DNA from: Thermoplasmatales archaeon
GTDB taxonomy: Archaea; Thermoplasmatota; Thermoplasmata; Thermoplasmatales; GCA-001856825
DNA: 64,000 nt
Assembly: GCA_026127935.1 (NCBI GenBank)
Contig: JAJSLL010000009.1
Span: forward strand, 1 to 64,000
Direction of reading: 5' to 3'
The stretch's first letter is position 1. Each line of letters starts with the position of its first letter. The position numbers were made by a program, and so were the translations under genes. A model generated the notes under the pieces. The model was not told the DNA's origin. It made no database searches and saw only the letters and a list, made by a program, of their open reading frames with translations. Positions 2,532 to 16,701 of this stretch are shown here, in pieces.

Positions 2532-3230
2532 TCATGTTGTGGTCACAACCGTCCCACTGGTTGTGATTGAATTGCCACCTGTAAGATCTGAAGAGTGCCC
2601 GTAGATGGTAGGTCCAACCATCATAGTCGCCGCGTAAGTGTCCGTTGAAGAATCGTACGAGAGGGTGATGCTTGGTAGCGGTGCCTTCGTTGGTCCGGCT
2701 GTAACACTGAAACCAGTATATGGATCATAAGTGCTGCCGTGGCAGCTGCAGTGAATTTTCCCCGAAAAAGTCGATGAAGTTGGGGAATAGAATCTGAGTT
2801 CAGGAGGCACACAGCCTAGATGCTGGCATATCGCAGATGCGGATACAACTGATCCGTATGGCCCTACTCCCCCAGGCGACTGGAATGAGCCTCCAGTAGC
2901 CGGAATAGGAACGGTGACTGGAGATATCTTCACATCGCTGTTGCTAGAATCACCTAATCTTAAGAGAAAGTTAGGTTCATTCTGCAGAGGATAATTGAAG
3001 GTGACTACGGCTGGATCGTTCACCGTCAAATCCGAAGTGTGAACTGAACTCCCGCTTGGCAAGACTAAGGTGAGGACTGGAAATGATGTTTCACCTCCAG
3101 ATACCGTTGGTATGACATACTGCACAACACTCCTCAGTGTCCCGATCATTCCCGCCCCTATTACCAGAACTCCCATTATCTTCAAGAAGTTCCTCTTATG
3201 TTCATCCGGTTGTCTTTCTGATGGTGTCAG
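2532..3230 (-). CDS. Rieske iron-sulfur protein, probable CUG start
   Basis: Carries the [2Fe-2S] cluster of the cytochrome b complex. The cluster boxes are CQHLGC (ligands C135, H137) and CSCHGS (C161, H164), with C140 and C163 as the usual disulfide pair. The N-terminus has KRNFLK followed by one hydrophobic helix, which fits a Tat-type signal anchor, as known for Rieske proteins. No ATG, GTG or TTG lies between the upstream gene's stop and this motif. A CTG at 3230 is preceded by GAGGGG at a 6-nt gap and gives a sensible 232-residue protein. The only standard upstream start (3380) overlaps the cupredoxin gene by 140 nt. An internal TTG would cut into the Tat motif. Its stop overlaps a possible cytochrome b ATG. 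Confidence 0.88.
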   Translation of the reverse strand: MTPSERQPDEHKRNFLKIMGVLVIGAGMIGTLRSVVQYVIPTVSGGETSFPVLTLVLPSGSSVHTSDLTVNDPAVVTFNYPLQNEPNFLLRLGDSSNSDVKISPVTVPIPATGGSFQSPGGVGPYGSVVSASAICQHLGCVPPELRFYSPTSSTFSGKIHCSCHGSTYDPYTGFSVTAGPTKAPLPSITLSYDSSTDTYAATMMVGPTIYGHSSDLTGGNSITTSGTVVTTT

Positions 3231-3240
3231 ATTCTTCCCC

Positions 3241-4473
3241 TCACGAAACGTAGACGGAACCTTCCATCCATCCGGCTGTCGACATAGCTCCTTCCCAACC
3301 CGATGAGCCTGAACCGCATGGGACCTCGCACTGCCAGGTATAGTTTCCTGAGGTGATGCTGAAGGTTGTGGATACCACACTGGATGGAGTCAAAGGAATA
3401 TTCAGTACAATCTTGTTACCTGTAGCCAGAATGGTGAGTGTGTGAGCAATGTTACTGCTGGGTACCTGAGAAACAGTAGAACCACCCGATATGTTGATGC
3501 CGTTGCTGCCTTCAGTAGAGTTCACATTTGTGTTGTTTACTATGGAGATCTGGTTGTTGGTTGTGCCTGCGACTGCTGCATACTGGGATGCAACTGGCCC
3601 TACACCGTCGTCGAAGTTAATGACCGTCAGGCTTATCTCCACCTTGGACGGCAGCTTCAACTGAGTGGTGGAATACAAACTTCCGTTCTCTAAGACATAG
3701 AAGGCAGGTTGATTCCCGACACTCTGATTAAAGAAGTTGTTTGTCGTGACCACTAAGGTCAGACTGTATGGTTGAGACGATGGTGTGGATACCGTTGGAG
3801 AAGAGTAAACGGTGCCTGCCATCCAACCTGGAGTATTCATAGCTCCTTCCCAGCCAGATGAGCCAGAGCCACAGGCAACCTCGCACTGCCAGGAGTAACT
3901 GCCAGAGCTCAGTGTGAATGATGTTTGAATAATCGAAGAGGGCGTGATCGGTATATTCACCACGACTGTTGCCCCACTAAATATAGTGAAAGTGTGAGCA
4001 ATGTTATCATTAGGGACCTGGGAAACTTTCTGGCCCCCTATAACGCTTATGTTTTGTCCGTTGTAAGTGGAATTCACATTTGTGTTATTGATTATGGAGA
4101 TCTGGTCATTAGTGGTACCTGTGACGTTGTCGTACTGTGTCGCTACCGACCCGACTCCATCGTCATAATTTATGATAGTCAGATCTATTTTTTTATTTGA
4201 CGGGAGCGTTATGTTTGCTGTAGATTGGAGCTTGCCTCCACTCAGAATATAAAAGGCCGGTTGGTCTCCAACCGAACTATTGTACTGATTGTTCGTTGTC
4301 ACTACTAATGTCAGAGAGTAGTAGTTGCTACCTCCACTGCTGTTGTTCGTCGTTCCGTGGGAACCACTCGGAGATGCTGTAGAAATGGCGTGGTCGTACG
4401 CCACTCCTATGCCTAGTCCGCCAATTATCACTATGGCGACTACAACTGCGTAAAATGTCTTTTCTGAAAGCAT
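3241..4473 (-). CDS. Membrane-anchored protein with two tandem cupredoxin domains (sulfocyanin/CuA-like)
   Basis: Probable extracytoplasmic copper electron carrier of 410 residues. Residues 7-25 form a signal anchor. Then come a Ser/Gly/Asn-rich linker and two homologous domains at about 52-225 and 235-410, which share long blocks such as VGxQPAFY, INxDDGVG and CGSGSSGWEGAM. Candidate copper ligands are H160, C197, C201, M212 in domain 1 and H344, C382, C386, M397 in domain 2. The CxxxC spacing recalls CuA sites, but the usual second histidine between cysteine and methionine is absent in both. First gene of the operon with Rieske and cytochrome b. The name sulfocyanin is based on context and fold, so the exact copper-site type is open. 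Confidence 0.75.
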   Translation of the reverse strand: MLSEKTFYAVVVAIVIIGGLGIGVAYDHAISTASPSGSHGTTNNSSGGSNYYSLTLVVTTNNQYNSSVGDQPAFYILSGGKLQSTANITLPSNKKIDLTIINYDDGVGSVATQYDNVTGTTNDQISIINNTNVNSTYNGQNISVIGGQKVSQVPNDNIAHTFTIFSGATVVVNIPITPSSIIQTSFTLSSGSYSWQCEVACGSGSSGWEGAMNTPGWMAGTVYSSPTVSTPSSQPYSLTLVVTTNNFFNQSVGNQPAFYVLENGSLYSTTQLKLPSKVEISLTVINFDDGVGPVASQYAAVAGTTNNQISIVNNTNVNSTEGSNGINISGGSTVSQVPSSNIAHTLTILATGNKIVLNIPLTPSSVVSTTFSITSGNYTWQCEVPCGSGSSGWEGAMSTAGWMEGSVYVS

Positions 4474-7209: not shown

Positions 7210-7328
7210 CCTTATCTTTCGTAGGAGGACATTTAATACTGGTAAAATAATTATTGCAATTCTTTACCGAATTTTCCCCTCTCCCTGAATATGGACAGTA
7301 TTTTATTTTGAAACGGCATCACAGGCAG

Positions 7329-7946
7329 ATGGAAAGCAACATAATCCTTGCCCTAGATATTGAAGATAAGGAGAAGGCACTAAAAATGGCCACTGAAGTC
7401 AAGGGACTGGTAAAGGCTTACAAGGTTGGCTATCCACTCATTCTTTCAACAGGATCCAGTGTAGTCAAAGAGGTCTCAAAAATCGGCGAGGTGATCGTGG
7501 ACATCAAGATAGCTGACATACCCGATGTCTCTAGAGACATAGCCAAAAATCTGACGGAACAGGGCGCACAAGGAGTGATCATGCAAGGATTTGTGGGAAG
7601 AGATGTCGTCAGGGAAGTCAGAAAGGAGGCCAGGAACCTCTATATCGTGGCTGAGATGTCTCACCCTGGAAACACAGACTTCATATCCGGCAACTCGGAA
7701 AAGATAGCGGTGATGGCGAAGGAAGAAGGAGCTGATGGTATAGTTGCACCAGCCACGCATCCAGAGAGGATACGGGCTCTTAAGAAAATATCTGGTTTGA
7801 AAGCACTCTCCCCTGGGATCGGGACTCAAGGTGGAAGCTACAAAGTGGCTATGGACAACGGGGCAGACTACCTCATAATCGGAAGGAGCATAACTTTGTC
7901 TTCCGATCCGAAACAAAAAATTAAAGAATTATTGTCACAAAGGTGA
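7329..7946 (+). CDS. pyrF: Orotidine 5'-phosphate decarboxylase
   Basis: Last step of UMP synthesis: OMP to UMP plus CO2. The 205-residue protein has the catalytic cluster VDIKIADIPD (family D-x-K-x-x-D) at about residues 59-68. It also has a phosphate-binding end, SPGIG followed by DYLIIGRSI. ATG 7329 is preferred over an upstream in-frame ATG because a TATA-like AGTATTTTATTT is centred about 26 nt before it, fitting a leaderless start, and because the protein then begins at the first beta strand (NIILALD). The stop overlaps the GTG of the aconitase-X gene, so the two are co-transcribed. Confidence 0.93.
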   Translation: MESNIILALDIEDKEKALKMATEVKGLVKAYKVGYPLILSTGSSVVKEVSKIGEVIVDIKIADIPDVSRDIAKNLTEQGAQGVIMQGFVGRDVVREVRKEARNLYIVAEMSHPGNTDFISGNSEKIAVMAKEEGADGIVAPATHPERIRALKKISGLKALSPGIGTQGGSYKVAMDNGADYLIIGRSITLSSDPKQKIKELLSQR

Positions 7947-9124
7947 GGCAGTTGCAACTCACTAAAGAAGAAGAGAAGATATTCGAGGGGGAAATGGGAG
8001 ATGCACCGAAGCTCGCAATAAGGTTATTGTATTCTCTGGGAGAGCTGGGTGAGGCAGAGAGATTGATACCCATCAAGTCGGCTCACATTTCTGGTGTCTC
8101 ATATAAGAATGTTGGCGAAGGCGGGATACAGTTCCTCAAGAAAATGATGCACAAGGTTTCAGTTCCGACTTCTCTCAATCCACTGGGTTTTGATATCGAA
8201 AACGGTGGGCCAGTTGACATAGACGAAACGTTCCACAAGAAACAGATGGAGATAATTGAGATCTATCAGAAGATGGGAGTAATGAACAGCTTCACTTGCA
8301 CCCCATATTACTTTTACAACGAACCGAGTTTTGGAGATCACATCTCTTGGGCAGAGAGCTCCGCAATCATCTATGTGAACTCTCTCATAGGAGCGAGGAC
8401 CAACAGGGAGAGCGGTCCATCTGCTATGGCATCCGCCATAATAGGAAAGACCCCTGACAGCGGCCTCCACAGAGATGAAGGAAGAAAAGCGACAGTTGTC
8501 GTGAATGTAACGGAGAAACTTGACTATACGCGATTTGCCGCGCTCGGTCTCTTTCTCGGACCAAAATTGAACAAGAACATACCGATTATCAAGGGACAGA
8601 AAGAGACAAAAGGGATTGAACTGAAGGCTCTTTCAGCCGCCCTATCTGCAGTTTCATCCATTCCCATGTTCCACGTGGACGGGATAACGAAAGAAACGAG
8701 CCTTGTATCTGACTCCCCTGAAACGATAAACGTGGAGAAGAGTGACATAGATGAAACCATCAGTAAGAATTCAGCTCAAGAGGAACCGGAGCTCATCGCT
8801 ATAGGTTGTCCTCACCTTTCTTCTGAGGAGCTCGATTACGTAGCAAGATTGGTTAAGGGAAAGAAGAAGGTTGGACCAGACCTGTTCCTGTTTACTTCCA
8901 GAGAGGTCAAGGCACAATCGCTGGAATCCGTAAAGATCATTGAGAATTTTGGAGGAAAGGTATTTTCTGATACCTGCATGGTTGTTTCACCGCTGAGTAA
9001 TAAATACAGCAAAACTGGAACCAATTCTGGAAAAGCGACCTTCTATCTACCTCTAAAGGGATACGGGAACCAGAAGGTTGCCTTTATGGGAATATTGGAC
9101 TTGCTGAAGTGGGTGATAGGGTGA
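7943..9124 (+). CDS. Aconitase X catalytic subunit / phosphomevalonate dehydratase large subunit
   Basis: Member of the DUF521/aconitase-X family. In archaea, large and small subunits together dehydrate (R)-5-phosphomevalonate in the modified mevalonate pathway. Candidate iron-sulfur ligands are C119 (SFTCTPYY), C289 (IGCPHLS) and C345 (DTCMVVSP), the three cysteines expected. RTNRESGPSAMASAIIGKTP is the conserved substrate-site segment. 393 residues is normal for the large subunit. The GTG start overlaps the pyrF stop, and its own stop overlaps the small-subunit ATG (TGATG), so subunits are translationally coupled. Some aconitase-X proteins instead act on hydroxyproline, so the substrate is inferred. 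Confidence 0.85.
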   Translation: MRQLQLTKEEEKIFEGEMGDAPKLAIRLLYSLGELGEAERLIPIKSAHISGVSYKNVGEGGIQFLKKMMHKVSVPTSLNPLGFDIENGGPVDIDETFHKKQMEIIEIYQKMGVMNSFTCTPYYFYNEPSFGDHISWAESSAIIYVNSLIGARTNRESGPSAMASAIIGKTPDSGLHRDEGRKATVVVNVTEKLDYTRFAALGLFLGPKLNKNIPIIKGQKETKGIELKALSAALSAVSSIPMFHVDGITKETSLVSDSPETINVEKSDIDETISKNSAQEEPELIAIGCPHLSSEELDYVARLVKGKKKVGPDLFLFTSREVKAQSLESVKIIENFGGKVFSDTCMVVSPLSNKYSKTGTNSGKATFYLPLKGYGNQKVAFMGILDLLKWVIG

Positions 9125-9909
9125 TGAAAGGACGCGGACTGTCTCCGGGCAAGGCCACTTCAGATGTCGTTGTCTGTAATCAGCTCATTTCGCCTCTCGG
9201 CGAGATCAGTAGGGATGGATTCGTAACCAGCGGACCTTGCGAAAACACAAACATAACTGGAAAGGTGTTGGCGTTCAAGGGGGGACGTGGTTCCACTGTC
9301 GGATCCTACACATTCCTTGAGTTAAAGACGAGAAATATTGCGCCAACTGGACTGATAAATGAGGCTGCGGAACAGATGGTAGTTACCGGGGCAATAATAT
9401 CTGAGATACCAATGGTCGACAGAGTACCTCTAGATGTCTTCTTGAAGGGAGACAGAGTTTCAATGAATGGCTCCACCGGAGATGTTTCTATTCTTAATGT
9501 GAAGGAGAGGAGAGTAGCAACTGTCTATCTCATGCACGACGGAAATCTCCTGTTGCTTAAGAGGTCACAGGATATGCCGTCTTACCCTGGACAACTAAGT
9601 GGCATCTCAGGTTTCATTGAAGAAGGGGAAACTCCTGAACAGACTGGGAAACGAGAGATGCTAGAAGAATGTTCTATAGAAGATGCAAAGCTCAGGAAGA
9701 TTGGAAAAGAGATCTATGTCAGGAACGACGGGAATCTTTACGGTATCACACCGATGATTATGGAGACAAGAACAGCAAAAGTGAAACTGAACGAAGAAAA
9801 CTCCGAATTCCACTGGATCAAACCTGAAGATATACAATCTTACAAAACAGTTCCAAAATTTCAAGAAACTTTTCTCTCTCTTAGGCATGACTGGTACCTA
9901 GATTCCTAG
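9124..9909 (+). CDS. Aconitase X small subunit fused to a Nudix hydrolase domain
   Basis: Residues 1-128 form the DUF126/swivel small subunit of aconitase X, with the conserved GGRGSTVGSY loop at 53-62 supplying the active-site serine. Residues 130-261 are a Nudix domain. Its box starts at G163 (GFIEEGE) and continues as REMLEECSI at 177-185, with the family's G-x5-E-x7-REUxEExGU pattern intact except serine for the last glycine. Small subunits in this family are normally about 130 residues and stand alone, so the fusion is unusual. No stop or frame change separates the domains. What the Nudix part hydrolyses is unknown; a diphosphate linked to isoprenoid precursors is only a guess. Confidence 0.85.
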   Translation: MKGRGLSPGKATSDVVVCNQLISPLGEISRDGFVTSGPCENTNITGKVLAFKGGRGSTVGSYTFLELKTRNIAPTGLINEAAEQMVVTGAIISEIPMVDRVPLDVFLKGDRVSMNGSTGDVSILNVKERRVATVYLMHDGNLLLLKRSQDMPSYPGQLSGISGFIEEGETPEQTGKREMLEECSIEDAKLRKIGKEIYVRNDGNLYGITPMIMETRTAKVKLNEENSEFHWIKPEDIQSYKTVPKFQETFLSLRHDWYLDS

Positions 9910-9988: not shown

Positions 9989-11275
9989 ATGCACGTGAAC
10001 GATGTACTGGATGACAGCCGCGTAGGTACCTTGGTAAACGTTCGAGGCTGGGTCTATAGGTCTAGAGAATCTGGTCAACTCATATTCTTGGTCATCAGAG
10101 ACTCGACAAATATCGTTCAGGTTGTTGTGGAGAAGGGCGCTGTCACTCCGGAAGAATTCGAAATGGCAAAGAAGTCTAACATCGAGACCTCAATCGAAGT
10201 AGAAGGGAAGGTCTCGAAGGAGCAGAAGGCGGTCACAGGCTATGAAATTCATGCGACAAAGGTCAAAGTCTACCAGTTCGCTGAAAATTTTCCGATCACG
10301 AAGGACAAGAGCGACGAGTTTCTGCTCGACATCAGACATCTCTGGCTGAGGAGTAGGGAGATGACTGCCATTATGAAAATGAGGGAAACAGTTCTCGATT
10401 CGATCCGCGATTTCATGAGAGAAAGAGGATACCACGAAGTGCAACCACCCATGTTCGTGGGTGGAATGGTAGAGGGCGGTTCCACCCTCTTCGAGGTTCC
10501 ATACTTTGGTGAGAAGGCTTATCTCACTCAATCCTCGCAGTTCTACTTGGAAGCATTCATGTATTCACTTGAAAGTGTGTACACTATATCCCCCTCATTC
10601 AGAGCAGAGAAGTCTAGGACTAGGAGACACCTCACTGAATACTCACACTATGAAGCAGAAGCTGCTTGGGTTGGAAACCAGCAGATGATGGATCTGGAAG
10701 AGGAAATGATCATAGCCATAGCCCAAAGCCTGCTTTCCTCGAACAAGGGAGAACTCGAAATCGTCAAGAGAGACCTGAAGAAGATCAAGAGCGTTGAAAA
10801 ACCATTCTACAGGTATCGCTACGAAAAGGTAATAGAAATAGGAAGACAGAAAGGTCTCCAGTTGGACGACGTAACCGACTTAGGAGAGAAGGAGGAAAGG
10901 GTTATAACAGAAGATTTTGACAAACCCATTTTCGTCTATAACTTCCCAACAGAGCTTAAACCATTCTACCATAGACCAGACCCAGCAGATCCGTCCCACG
11001 TGATGAACCACGACGTTCTGGCCCCCGAAGGGTATGGGGAAATAATCGGAGGTGGAGAAAGAATATGGAGCAAGGATGAGCTGATCTCAAGGATGAGGAA
11101 CGATAACCTGAATCCTGAAGATTATCAATGGTACGTCGACCTGAGGAGTTTTGGTAGCGTTCCTCATTCTGGTTTTGGACTTGGAGTTGACCGTCTGCTT
11201 ACCTGGCTTGCTGGATTGGATCACATTAACAAGGTCGTCCCATTTCCGAGGACAATAAGACGGCTTAAACCTTAG
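9989..11275 (+). CDS. asnS: Asparaginyl-tRNA synthetase
   Basis: Class IIb synthetase charging tRNA-Asn. An OB-fold anticodon-binding domain (about 1-100) is followed by the catalytic core. Motif 2 is SFRAEKSRTRRHLTEYSHYE near residue 204, and motif 3 is GFGLGVDRLLTW near 395. GGSTLFEVPYFGEKAYLTQS and SVPHSGFG followed by VVPFPRT are characteristic of AsnRS rather than AspRS. 428 residues is normal. A TATA-like ATTATTTATACAG centred about 26 nt upstream supports a leaderless ATG start. Confidence 0.92.
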   Translation: MHVNDVLDDSRVGTLVNVRGWVYRSRESGQLIFLVIRDSTNIVQVVVEKGAVTPEEFEMAKKSNIETSIEVEGKVSKEQKAVTGYEIHATKVKVYQFAENFPITKDKSDEFLLDIRHLWLRSREMTAIMKMRETVLDSIRDFMRERGYHEVQPPMFVGGMVEGGSTLFEVPYFGEKAYLTQSSQFYLEAFMYSLESVYTISPSFRAEKSRTRRHLTEYSHYEAEAAWVGNQQMMDLEEEMIIAIAQSLLSSNKGELEIVKRDLKKIKSVEKPFYRYRYEKVIEIGRQKGLQLDDVTDLGEKEERVITEDFDKPIFVYNFPTELKPFYHRPDPADPSHVMNHDVLAPEGYGEIIGGGERIWSKDELISRMRNDNLNPEDYQWYVDLRSFGSVPHSGFGLGVDRLLTWLAGLDHINKVVPFPRTIRRLKP

Positions 11276-12721: not shown

Positions 12722-13231
12722 ATGGGCACACAAAGCGTTGCCATCACCTCTACAAAGATGGGCTTCGTGAACATCATAATAGCTCTTGTAGTTTTGTGGA
12801 TAGTTACTTCTGTTCCTCTTTATCTTACGTCCAAGGTAATAATTCAAAATCGGTTCCGTTTCTGGTACGCTATTGGTGGGACATTTATTGGGACCATCGT
12901 TTTCTTTTGTTAGGATCTCTGTTCGATCTTATATTCCCAATTCTTGGTCTCTTCTTCGGGTTCATTGGGGTTCTGCTAGGTTCTAATGGGTGTATATCAG
13001 ATCGATCTTGGGCGAGCATTCCTGCTCGCCTTTGTCACTTTCATTGTGTACATCATCCTATCCTTTCTGTTGGCGCTCCTCGGAGTTTCATTGGCTTTCA
13101 TTCAATTTCTCCTGCTCTTATTGTGGCTGGTGAATCACGGAGCAACTTTTTCTATACTTATCTTGAGTTCGAGCCCAGATATATCCCAAACCTTGTCCGA
13201 TCCTCCAACCGATGATTTTTCCTCTGCCTGA
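12722..13231 (+). pseudogene. Small integral membrane protein gene interrupted by two frame changes
   Basis: Hydrophobic coding continues across three pieces: residues from 12722 (VNIIIALVVLWIVTSVPLYL) to about 12905, then LLGSLFDLIFPILGLFFGF in the next frame to about 12980, then back to the first frame (LLAFVTFIVYIILSFLLALL). One missing base near the T-run at 12900 and one extra base near 12960-12985 would explain it. Joined, it reads as a protein of about 110-165 residues with four or five membrane helices. The 3' end overlaps the end of ileS. Either a recent pseudogene or sequencing error. Function unknown. Confidence 0.55.
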
Positions 13232-16185
13232 GTGCTTGAAAGTATGTATTCTTTGAAAGACGAAAACGCCTCCATCAGAGATTCATCTCCCTCGATCCGC
13301 AGATAGATTCTGTCAGTATAATCCATATTCGCGTCCTTTCGCATGCTCTGAATTCTTCTCACCATCTCCCGGGCCAACCCTTCAAGATATAGCTTCTTGT
13401 CGAACTCCTTGTTTATCAGTATCCTGAGGTCTGAAGTATCGTCGGATACAAATCTCTCGTCAAGGTGTTCCTTGGTGTCGACGTTCTCATTAGTTATGGT
13501 CTTACCCAGCACAGTGACTCTTCCGGATTTCTTGAATTCTAGCTGGTTTTCACTCCTTCCGAATTCCGCTTCTGCAGCGGCTAGATCCTTTCCGAAGATT
13601 CTGCCGGTGGATTTCTTGTCCAGAAGGTGTTCCTGTCTTAGATAGGATTTCAGATCGGCTGCAAATATGTCCTTCGTGTTCAGTTCCTTCTTAATCAGGC
13701 CGCTGAACTTTTTCATCACCCTTCCATACTTAGGATCAGTCACAACGATCTCTTTGACGGGTCTTCTCAAGATCAGACCATTCTTCTGTCTTATTCTCCT
13801 GCCTGATTCTACTATTTCTTTTACCAGATTCATTTCTTCTATTACCGAACTATCAAATTCTTCTTCCGCAGGGAATTCAGAAAGGTGAACTGACTTAGCA
13901 CCATTCAATTTCATGAAAAGATATTCCGAGAAAAATGGAGTGAATGGTGCAAGCATTTTTGTAATGCTGTTCAGTGTCTCATAGGCAACAAAGTAAGATG
14001 ACTTCTTAGCATCTGTAACATCCTTACTCCAGAAAGTATCTCTGGAAAGTCTCAAATACCATTGTGATAAATCCAGCACAAGATCCTTTATGTCGTCCAG
14101 TGCAAGATGTGGATCATATTCGTCCATATGCTTTGTTACTGATGATATGCATTCCTTGGTCCTGTTGAGCATCCACTTGTCGAGGTCCGAAACTAATTTC
14201 TCCTTCTTTGGGCGCCAATTGTCCAATCTTGCATTGGTGGAGAACAATAGATAAGAATTATAAATTGTTCCTAGCAATTTCCTGGAAAACTCAACTGAAA
14301 CCTCTTCCGAGAATCTCTTTGGCTTCCACGGAGGACCTTGGAAAAAGAACAGTCTGAGTGAGTCTGTTCCTATTCTGTCCATTATCTGGAGGGGATCCAC
14401 TTGATCTCCTCTGGATTTACTCATCTTTTCTCCCTTGGAGTTCAGAACGAATTCCATCACCACGACATTCTTGTAGGCATTCCTGTCAAAGAGCAAGGAA
14501 GATATCACATGGAGTGCATAGAACCAGCCCCTCGTCTGATCCATCGCCTCAGTTATGAAATCAACTGGACTGTTCTCGTTGAATAATTCCTGATTTTCAA
14601 ATGGGTAGTGATATTGTGCAAAGAAGGCAGAACCTGAATCAAACCATGTATCGATCGGGTACGGTTCGCGTATCATTTCTGAATCGCACTCTTGACACTT
14701 TACCTTCACTTCATCAACTTTTGGCCTGTGAAGTTCAAAATTTTCTGGTACGTATGTAGAGTTGTCCAGCAACTCCTTCTTGCTTCCTGGCACGAAGACG
14801 TGATTGTTCTTGCACGTCCATACAGGAAGGGGTGTTCCCCAAAACCTGTTCCTCGACAAAGCCCAATCCTTCCCCTCGTCCAGGAAATTTCCGAACCTTC
14901 CGTCTCGTATGTAATCTGGCTTCCAATTCACCCTCTGATTGTATTCTACAACCTTTTCCTTGACCATTGATACTCCGATGAACCAGGATTCAACTGGATA
15001 GAATATCAGGCGAGTGTCACATCTCCAACAGAAAGGGTAGGAGTGAGATGTCTTTTCCGTCTTGATCATCTGGCCCCTCTCATTGAGATATTCGATGATT
15101 CTATCACTTGCAGTCTGCACATCAAGCCCTTTCCAGGGAGATTCCAGAGATATCTTTCCTGCCTCGTCGACGGTGACATAAAGCTCTCCCTTTTCCTTCT
15201 TCAAAACTGCATAGTCGTCCGCACCAAAAGCAGGCGCCTGATGCACTATTCCTGAACCATCTTCCTTTGTGACGAAATCGCCCGCCACTACATACAGTCC
15301 AGTATTGACCCTGAGTATAGGAATCAGTTGTTCGTACTTTGTTCCTACGAAAAAAGATCCAGGTTTGCTGTCAAGAATTTCGTATTTCTTTAATACTATC
15401 TTGGCTCTCTCTTCTACCACCCAGATTTTTTCCCCCTTATAGTTGACCAATAAATAATTGAAATTTGGGTTAACTGCGAGATACTCGTTTGCGGGAAGAG
15501 TCCATGGAGTTGTGGTCCAGACTAGGAAATATTCATCCTTTCCCGTTATCTTGAATTTTACGTATATCGAGAAGTCATCGACTTCCTTGTAGCCTTGAGA
15601 TACCTCGTGCGCGCTGAGAGTGGTTCCACACCTGGGACAATAAGGAGATATCCTGAAGTCCTTGAACAGTAGGCCCTTCTTGTATAGTTCCTTAAGCGCC
15701 CACCATTCGCTCTCAATGTACTCATCCTTCATGGTTATGTAGGCCCTGTCGTAATCGACCCAGAAACCCAATCTCTTGGATGCTTCTGCCCATATCTTGA
15801 CGTACTCGAATACACTCTCCTTACAGAGAGCGTTGAACTTTGAAACTCCCAGTTTTTCTATCTCCGCCTTGTTCTTAATGCCCAGTTTCTTCTCCACCTC
15901 AATCTCAACCGGCAACCCGTGGCAGTCCCATCCTGCAATACGGGGATCGATGTAGAATCCCTTCATTGTCTTGTATCTGAGGAACAGATCTTTCATCGCC
16001 CTTGTCTCTGCGTGTCCTATGTGGGGTGGACCATTTGCGGTTGGAGGCCCCTCGACAAACGAAAACCTTCGCTTCCCTCTATTAACTGCGAAGGACAGCT
16101 GCATGATGTTTTCTCTTTCCCAATATTCAGATACTTCTTTCTCTATCTGCAGCGAGTCGAAGTATTGAGGAAGTTCGTCCAACAT
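13135..16185 (-). CDS. ileS: Isoleucyl-tRNA synthetase
   Basis: Class Ia synthetase charging tRNA-Ile. HIGH motif in GPPHIGHAETR near residue 55 and KMSKS in GEKMSKSRGDQ near residue 595. The editing domain lies between them, with the WTTTPWTLPAN segment near 225. A zinc pair, CPRC, occurs near residue 180 and further CxxC pairs near 430-490. About 1016 residues fits the archaeal/eukaryotic type. The start at 16185 is chosen because an AT-rich TATA-like element (about 16211-16219) lies at the leaderless distance; an ATG at 16203 is also possible. Confidence 0.95.
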   Translation of the reverse strand: MLDELPQYFDSLQIEKEVSEYWERENIMQLSFAVNRGKRRFSFVEGPPTANGPPHIGHAETRAMKDLFLRYKTMKGFYIDPRIAGWDCHGLPVEIEVEKKLGIKNKAEIEKLGVSKFNALCKESVFEYVKIWAEASKRLGFWVDYDRAYITMKDEYIESEWWALKELYKKGLLFKDFRISPYCPRCGTTLSAHEVSQGYKEVDDFSIYVKFKITGKDEYFLVWTTTPWTLPANEYLAVNPNFNYLLVNYKGEKIWVVEERAKIVLKKYEILDSKPGSFFVGTKYEQLIPILRVNTGLYVVAGDFVTKEDGSGIVHQAPAFGADDYAVLKKEKGELYVTVDEAGKISLESPWKGLDVQTASDRIIEYLNERGQMIKTEKTSHSYPFCWRCDTRLIFYPVESWFIGVSMVKEKVVEYNQRVNWKPDYIRDGRFGNFLDEGKDWALSRNRFWGTPLPVWTCKNNHVFVPGSKKELLDNSTYVPENFELHRPKVDEVKVKCQECDSEMIREPYPIDTWFDSGSAFFAQYHYPFENQELFNENSPVDFITEAMDQTRGWFYALHVISSLLFDRNAYKNVVVMEFVLNSKGEKMSKSRGDQVDPLQIMDRIGTDSLRLFFFQGPPWKPKRFSEEVSVEFSRKLLGTIYNSYLLFSTNARLDNWRPKKEKLVSDLDKWMLNRTKECISSVTKHMDEYDPHLALDDIKDLVLDLSQWYLRLSRDTFWSKDVTDAKKSSYFVAYETLNSITKMLAPFTPFFSEYLFMKLNGAKSVHLSEFPAEEEFDSSVIEEMNLVKEIVESGRRIRQKNGLILRRPVKEIVVTDPKYGRVMKKFSGLIKKELNTKDIFAADLKSYLRQEHLLDKKSTGRIFGKDLAAAEAEFGRSENQLEFKKSGRVTVLGKTITNENVDTKEHLDERFVSDDTSDLRILINKEFDKKLYLEGLAREMVRRIQSMRKDANMDYTDRIYLRIEGDESLMEAFSSFKEYILSSTQAEEKSSVGGSDKVWDISGLELKISIEKVAP

Positions 16186-16701
16186 AAGCAACTTTATGTG
16201 CATCAGATTGATAATTTTTGTCCATAGTTTTCGATTCTCTATACAATCTTGGACCGACAATGAATATGATCTCGTTTCTAATCCTGAATCACTGTTTCAT
16301 TTTCATGGTAGTCACCTTTGCAGTAAGTGGAATCGGTTCAGCTGTAGCATTCTCAAAACTCCTGGCTTACATATCAAAGAGTTCGTCAGCAGCCCAGGCG
16401 GGTTCTATTATGAACTGTTCTTCGGGCTTGGTTTCATTTAAGGAAGTCTTGGAGGGGGGCCTGCTGTTCCAATACTTTGGCTTTTCTGGCTCCAATAATC
16501 ATATTCGAACCTTCCCTGGTATATGGAATAGTGCTTCCCGGAATATCCAAACGAGGTTCGCCCACACCGGTTTGATGGATCAATTCCCATTGATTTTTTC
16601 GTGACCCATATCAAGCAAAAAATTTAGTCATAAGATTCACCAGTTGCTTTAGGAAAATTTGCTCCTTTGTATATATGAAGCAATGAGCCAGAGTATCGAG
16701 G

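Follow-up and report, generated by a model that had tools for sequence, protein, structure and literature searches.

The part of the window considered here (the window being the whole 64,000-nucleotide stretch of DNA analysed) carries, on the plus strand, the gene pyrF for orotidine 5'-phosphate decarboxylase (7254-7946, NF010386 above cut-off), which overlaps the start of acnX, encoding the AcnX large subunit (7943-9124, PF04412 E 1.4e-131), and an ORF of 261 amino acids that joins an AcnX swivel half to a Nudix half (9124-9909). The ATG of this fusion at 9124 shares one base with the acnX stop codon (TGATG), and its own TAG stop lies at 9907-9909. Given the overlaps of only a few bases, pyrF, acnX and the fusion gene are probably co-transcribed. 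The neighbouring asnS (asparaginyl-tRNA synthetase, 9989-11275, plus strand, NF003037 above cut-off) lies outside the system. An ileS-like gene for a class I tRNA synthetase (13135-16260, minus strand) served as synteny marker in the comparison of the relatives' loci; it closes the locus in many of them, including the AcnX-less ones of lineage f14. As clues to a substrate, the neighbours ileS, DUF359 and rpb7-like were set aside, as they are housekeeping genes and uninformative.

The swivel half of the fusion (amino acids 1-125, 9124-9498, plus strand), the equivalent of the AcnX small subunit, matches Pfam AcnX_swivel_put (PF01989) over amino acids 23-98 with an E-value of 1.4e-21 and 76.5 bits at a curated cut-off of 27, and its motifs GGRGSTVGSY and TGAIISEIPMVD are intact. 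The Nudix half (amino acids 126-261, 9499-9906, plus strand) matches Pfam NUDIX (PF00293) over amino acids 129-248 (E 1.8e-11, 44.6 bits, curated cut-off 21.1). The AF2 model of the whole 261-amino-acid chain, built from an input alignment of 11 sequences, has a mean pLDDT of 93 and a pTM of 0.82 and comprises two folded domains, with the last swivel strand ending at residue 123 and the first Nudix strand beginning at 127, leaving about three residues in between. In the fold search, the swivel half was superimposed on T. kodakarensis 7cnr_D with a Z-score of 24.8 (rmsd 0.9 over 125 amino acids), and the Nudix half on M. mazei 3grn_B (Z 19.8, rmsd 1.8 over 135 amino acids) and NudI 6dt3_B (Z 18.6). 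An earlier note on this DNA had described 9124-9909 as an AcnX swivel with a complete C-terminal Nudix domain, which agrees with the exact coordinates, with both Pfam matches and with the two domains of the model. It had also considered a hidden stop or frameshift between the domains; the translation contains no internal stop, and a frameshift or assembly artefact is ruled out by the recurrence of the same ORF in independent genomes across the class.

Separate large and swivel subunits in tandem (PF04412 at 7943-9124, PF01989 at 9124-9909) are the arrangement of type IIb AcnX, represented by the phosphomevalonate dehydratases (PMDh) of A. pernix (Ape_2087.1 and Ape_2089) and T. kodakarensis (TK1248, 7cnr), with which the locus shares the two-subunit organisation, the large-subunit residues and the swivel fold. 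However, the solved AcnX small subunits have about 130-140 amino acids and end where the Nudix half begins in the 261-amino-acid fusion. The large subunit matches 7cnr_A with an E-value of 6.1e-96 and contains the motifs CTPYY (C119), WAESSA (E138), GCPH (C289) and DTCMV (C345); with T. kodakarensis 7cnr_A as intermediary, these residues would correspond to Cys122, Glu145, Cys297 and Cys356, which have been studied in the A. pernix PMDh (PMC10040528). The prediction that AcnX and the swivel together constitute a PMDh is well supported, because the genome also encodes, elsewhere, mevalonate kinase (MVK), isopentenyl phosphate kinase (IPK), IDI-2 and a UbiD-family decarboxylase of 440 amino acids (TIGR00148), all above the NCBIfam curated cut-offs. 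The AMPD-type UbiD, moreover, tracks AcnX: a match at E<=1e-63 is present in 13 of 14 AcnX-containing genomes tested, the exception (G297) being 84% complete, and no match better than 1.6e-24 was obtained in any of the 18 AcnX-less genomes tested. The naming of a probable PMDh swivel in the earlier note is thereby strengthened. In the same genome (contig C9, L166), the IPK gene overlaps the type 2 IPP isomerase gene on the same strand.

The Nudix box was located by alignment at amino acids 163-185 (GFIEEGETPEQTGKREMLEECSI, 9610-9678, plus strand) and follows the consensus GX5EX7REUXEEXGU in its GX5E and REXXEE parts, with the final Gly replaced by Ser as the one deviation. Across fused, decayed, stand-alone and eIF2B-linked relatives, E181 and E182 are conserved in 100% and E178 in 99% of the sequences. 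The Nudix half is probably an active Mg2+-dependent pyrophosphohydrolase of the MutT/NudI type. NudI (6dt3) and M. mazei MutT (3grn) are the best structural and profile matches and have the same fold and Nudix glutamates; however, they share only about 20% identity with the fused domain, whose last box Gly is Ser, and their substrates are not transferable. A substrate assignment from the nearest structure was dropped, as the top Nudix matches, which include nucleotide, Ap4A and geranyl-PP enzymes, lie close together in Z-score. A role of the Nudix half as type I IPP isomerase in place of IDI was rejected, with IDI-2 present in the genome and the IDI-1 equivalog model TIGR02150 scoring the Nudix half at 13.2 bits at a cut-off of 105.8. 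In the alignment, position 200 (codon 9721-9723, plus strand) is Arg in all 79 fused and all 13 decayed-swivel proteins, in one of 15 eIF2B-linked proteins and in a minority of the stand-alone ones; Arg200 may be a mark of lineage or of substrate.

The distribution within the class was followed in a sample of 400 Thermoplasmata-like genomes, with Methanomassiliicoccales among the named relatives, in which the Nudix ortholog was called at E<=1e-15 (profile A1) and AcnX at E<=1e-20. Of the 400 genomes, 239 contain PF01989, 236 the AcnX large subunit and 239 the Nudix ortholog. Swivel, AcnX and Nudix ortholog occur together in 198 of them, a count of co-occurrence, with the fusion itself directly seen in dozens of loci and a few cases (f20, f29, G126) having all three parts without an intact fusion. 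The swivel-Nudix fusion is probably old in this archaeal class. Another 37 genomes lack the Nudix but carry AcnX and swivel; the Nudix is therefore not indispensable. Irregular copies also exist: in a genome of the same genus (G222), the locus L179 has a frameshift within the Nudix half at about 1655-2173, which may be an assembly error, and at G054:C1:441953-442342 the profile match in a fused ORF contains a single in-frame TGA.

The reverse case, a Nudix ortholog at E<=1e-15 without AcnX or a recognisable swivel, was found in 38 class genomes, some with an estimated completeness of 100%, 97% and 97%; it includes f14 and part of f15. Of the 13 decayed loci examined, 12 come from AcnX-less genomes and one, L197, from G251, where AcnX and, separately, a weaker swivel match lie at other places in the genome. 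Each of the 13 has a stretch of about 105-125 amino acids before the Nudix, which retains the start and end patterns of the swivel without its GKGSTVGSY and ATGA loops. Profile comparison of this stretch with the swivel gave a probability of 97.6% (E 4.5e-12) for f14 and 98.0% (E 2e-13) for f15; among 140 column-shuffled hhalign controls, one in the first 20 reached 99.6% spuriously, over 32 columns with 3% identity; the 120 further shuffles gave no such score, and the rest stayed below 2%. Synteny was established for five f14 remnant loci, where ileS is the convergent neighbour and matches the ileS of the window. The 50 matches listed in a fold search with the f14 remnant model (pLDDT 82.6) were filled by Nudix proteins, with no swivel chain among them. 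Judged by profile comparison, synteny and a similar order of secondary-structure elements, the decayed N-terminal half is homologous to the swivel. The N-terminal half of the f29 proteins (L202, L203) was not called a swivel remnant, since its probability with the swivel profile was 3.1%, which is no match.

The two halves of the decayed proteins evolve at different rates. In three close f14 remnant pairs, dN is 0.48-0.67 in the N-terminal half as opposed to 0.13 in the Nudix half, and f15 remnant pairs show the same direction with a smaller gap (0.08 versus 0.04 and 0.34 versus 0.21), dS being saturated in many pairs. The former swivel half thus evolves at up to five times the rate of the Nudix half, whereas in intact fusions the relation is reversed, dN of the N-terminal half being about equal to or below that of the Nudix half. 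The Nudix glutamates are retained in all 13 remnant proteins. In the Nudix tree, the decayed proteins appear in two places, beside an f33 fused protein (support 84) and among f15 fused proteins (support 98), positions that suggest at least two independent decays of the swivel. Trees of the short Nudix domain resolve poorly, and the data neither favour nor reject a single clade of fused and decayed proteins (p-AU 0.119). As to the route used instead, the majority of the f15 genomes tested that lack AcnX encode an MDD_C decarboxylase, which agrees with the haloarchaea-type mevalonate route reported for Thermoplasmatota (PMC11052028).

Taken together, we consider it likely that the fusion combines a PMDh swivel with a MutT/NudI-type Nudix, two parts with separate functions of which that of the Nudix would be independent of PMDh. 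The N-terminal half would act as the small subunit that pairs with the adjacent AcnX large subunit to form PMDh, which would convert MVA-5-P into trans-anhydromevalonate-5-P, and the C-terminal half would be a folded pyrophosphohydrolase that rides on this complex. Where PMDh is lost, or where a second, free-standing swivel is present, the attached swivel would tend to decay and the Nudix would stay under purifying selection. The Nudix outlasts the trans-anhydromevalonate route, and an action confined to an intermediate of it is therefore improbable. In most fusions of the class the two halves have remained joined, and the tether may bring some benefit. As candidate substrate, a nucleoside tri- or diphosphate or similar housekeeping nucleotide has about an even chance; IPP or DMAPP, hydrolysed to IP or DMAP next to IPK, is a considerably less probable candidate, and PRPP or ADP-ribose type compounds come slightly below it, on a level with all other substrates together.

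Among the alternatives, a minor possibility is a Nudix linked to the isoprenoid pathway as a whole, which would convert IPP and DMAPP to IP and DMAP, the reaction that IPK reverses, and thereby provide isoprenoid feedback or DMAP for the prenylated-FMN cofactor of the UbiD-type decarboxylase that acts next. NudI is the closest relative in the PDB by profile; E. coli NudI has been reported to convert IPP and DMAPP (PMC6058358), plant Nudix 1 and 3 produce IP from IPP, and plant Nudix enzymes make both IP and DMAP (PMC9936147). Such an activity would outlast a switch to another mevalonate route, and all 32 genomes examined for IPK have it, the AcnX-less ones included. However, lineages lacking this Nudix (f2, f3, f17) have IPK just the same, and the relatives of the domain pair with eIF2B-like proteins, not with isoprenoid genes. 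The geranyl-PP-hydrolysing plant NUDX1 is among the top structural matches, but tied with many others, and structural ties with Nudix enzymes acting on nucleotides are uninformative. The fuller proposal, that the Nudix hydrolyses IPP/DMAPP or another prenyl diphosphate and forms with IPK an archaeal IP/IPP control cycle, is somewhat more doubtful still; if true, this cycle would be physically tied to PMDh, the first committed step in the modified mevalonate pathway, and the Nudix, whose substrate would be downstream of every pathway variant, would persist when one route replaces another. In three f15 genomes (G009:C8, G251:C4, G257:C6), a distance of about 10-15 kb separates IPK from the Nudix gene with the swivel remnant, a proximity that may be due to chance or shared descent.

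The wider relatives, through which other archaeal phyla were sampled, are the best 80 loci of a profile search across genome contigs. The majority of them are swivel-Nudix fusions; eight are Nudix-eIF2B-like fusions from Haloferax, Haloplanus and Nitrososphaeria/Thaumarchaeota, several adjoin an eIF2B-like gene directly (Chloroflexota, Aerophobetes and one deltaproteobacterium), and the rest are stand-alone. PF01008 was confirmed in both the fused and the adjoining type of partner. The fusions of Haloferax, Haloplanus and Nitrososphaeria fall within the same Nudix subfamily, with E-values of 1e-35 to 1e-43 against the fused-Nudix profile, and likewise carry a partner domain, but here the Nudix is N-terminal, the partner is eIF2B-like and residue 200 is mostly not Arg. 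In other classes of the same phylum, the ortholog is found mostly in ORFs of 132-203 amino acids, too short to include a swivel. At L124, L133, L147, L148, L149 and L159 (Chloroflexota, Aerophobetes), a gene named CinA-like by its sequence lies immediately upstream of the stand-alone Nudix, and at L206 (G126, 2853-4345, minus strand) the stand-alone Nudix gene overlaps an mtnA-like gene of the eIF2B superfamily.

These partners in Nitrososphaeria, Haloferacaceae, Chloroflexota and Aerophobetes would fit a Nudix acting on PRPP or ADP-ribose and yielding ribose phosphate for the eIF2B-like proteins, with the Thermoplasmata fusion as an accident of gene order. We regard this as doubtful. The Aerophobetes partner has ribose 1,5-bisphosphate isomerase as its best NCBIfam match; however, matches of this kind fall below the cut-offs and the function of the partner is itself uncertain, and position 200 differs between fused and eIF2B-linked proteins, so that their substrates may differ. 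A sensor or regulator, in which the Nudix would bind a nucleotide or an ADP-ribose-like ligand and tune PMDh with hydrolysis secondary, is unlikely: the attachment looks rigid in the AF2 model and known Nudix sensor domains such as NrtR are among the fold matches, but the metal-binding glutamates, which are not invariant in many Nudix sensors, are essentially invariant here, and the domain is retained where no PMDh is left to regulate. The proposal of the earlier note, a Nudix acting on a phosphorylated intermediate or side product of the modified (trans-anhydromevalonate) route, has become very improbable in spite of the covalent tether to PMDh and the co-occurrence of all three parts in the class, as the glutamate-bearing domain persists in the 38 genomes without AcnX or swivel, the AMPD-type decarboxylase is missing from the AcnX-less genomes tested, relatives outside the class stand alone or are eIF2B-linked, and the known intermediates MVA-5-P and tAHMP are monophosphate esters, whereas Nudix enzymes normally act on diphosphates.

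The preferred reading of two separate functions thus concerns an architecture of two known families, swivel and Nudix, whose class-wide fusion is new within the literature searched, to which subscription papers largely did not belong; no paper describing a swivel-Nudix fusion was found there, in keeping with the earlier note, which knew of none. Of the possibility raised in it that the architecture is widespread and already assigned, the first half holds and the second does not. An undescribed, class-wide architecture, as far as this literature goes, is thereby placed in a recently discovered lipid-precursor pathway of archaea. Intact fusions, PMDh lacking the Nudix and Nudix proteins whose swivel is decaying all occur in the class, a natural experiment by which one can test whether the long conservation of a gene fusion implies a shared function; it is also a warning that the substrate of a Nudix should not be guessed from its fusion partner. 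For annotation, archaeal proteins of about 250 amino acids of the DUF126/Nudix type may or may not hold a working PMDh subunit here. Possible transitional states are seen at L205 (G026) and L197 (G251), where AcnX and a separate swivel match elsewhere in the genome occur together with a degenerate swivel on the Nudix.
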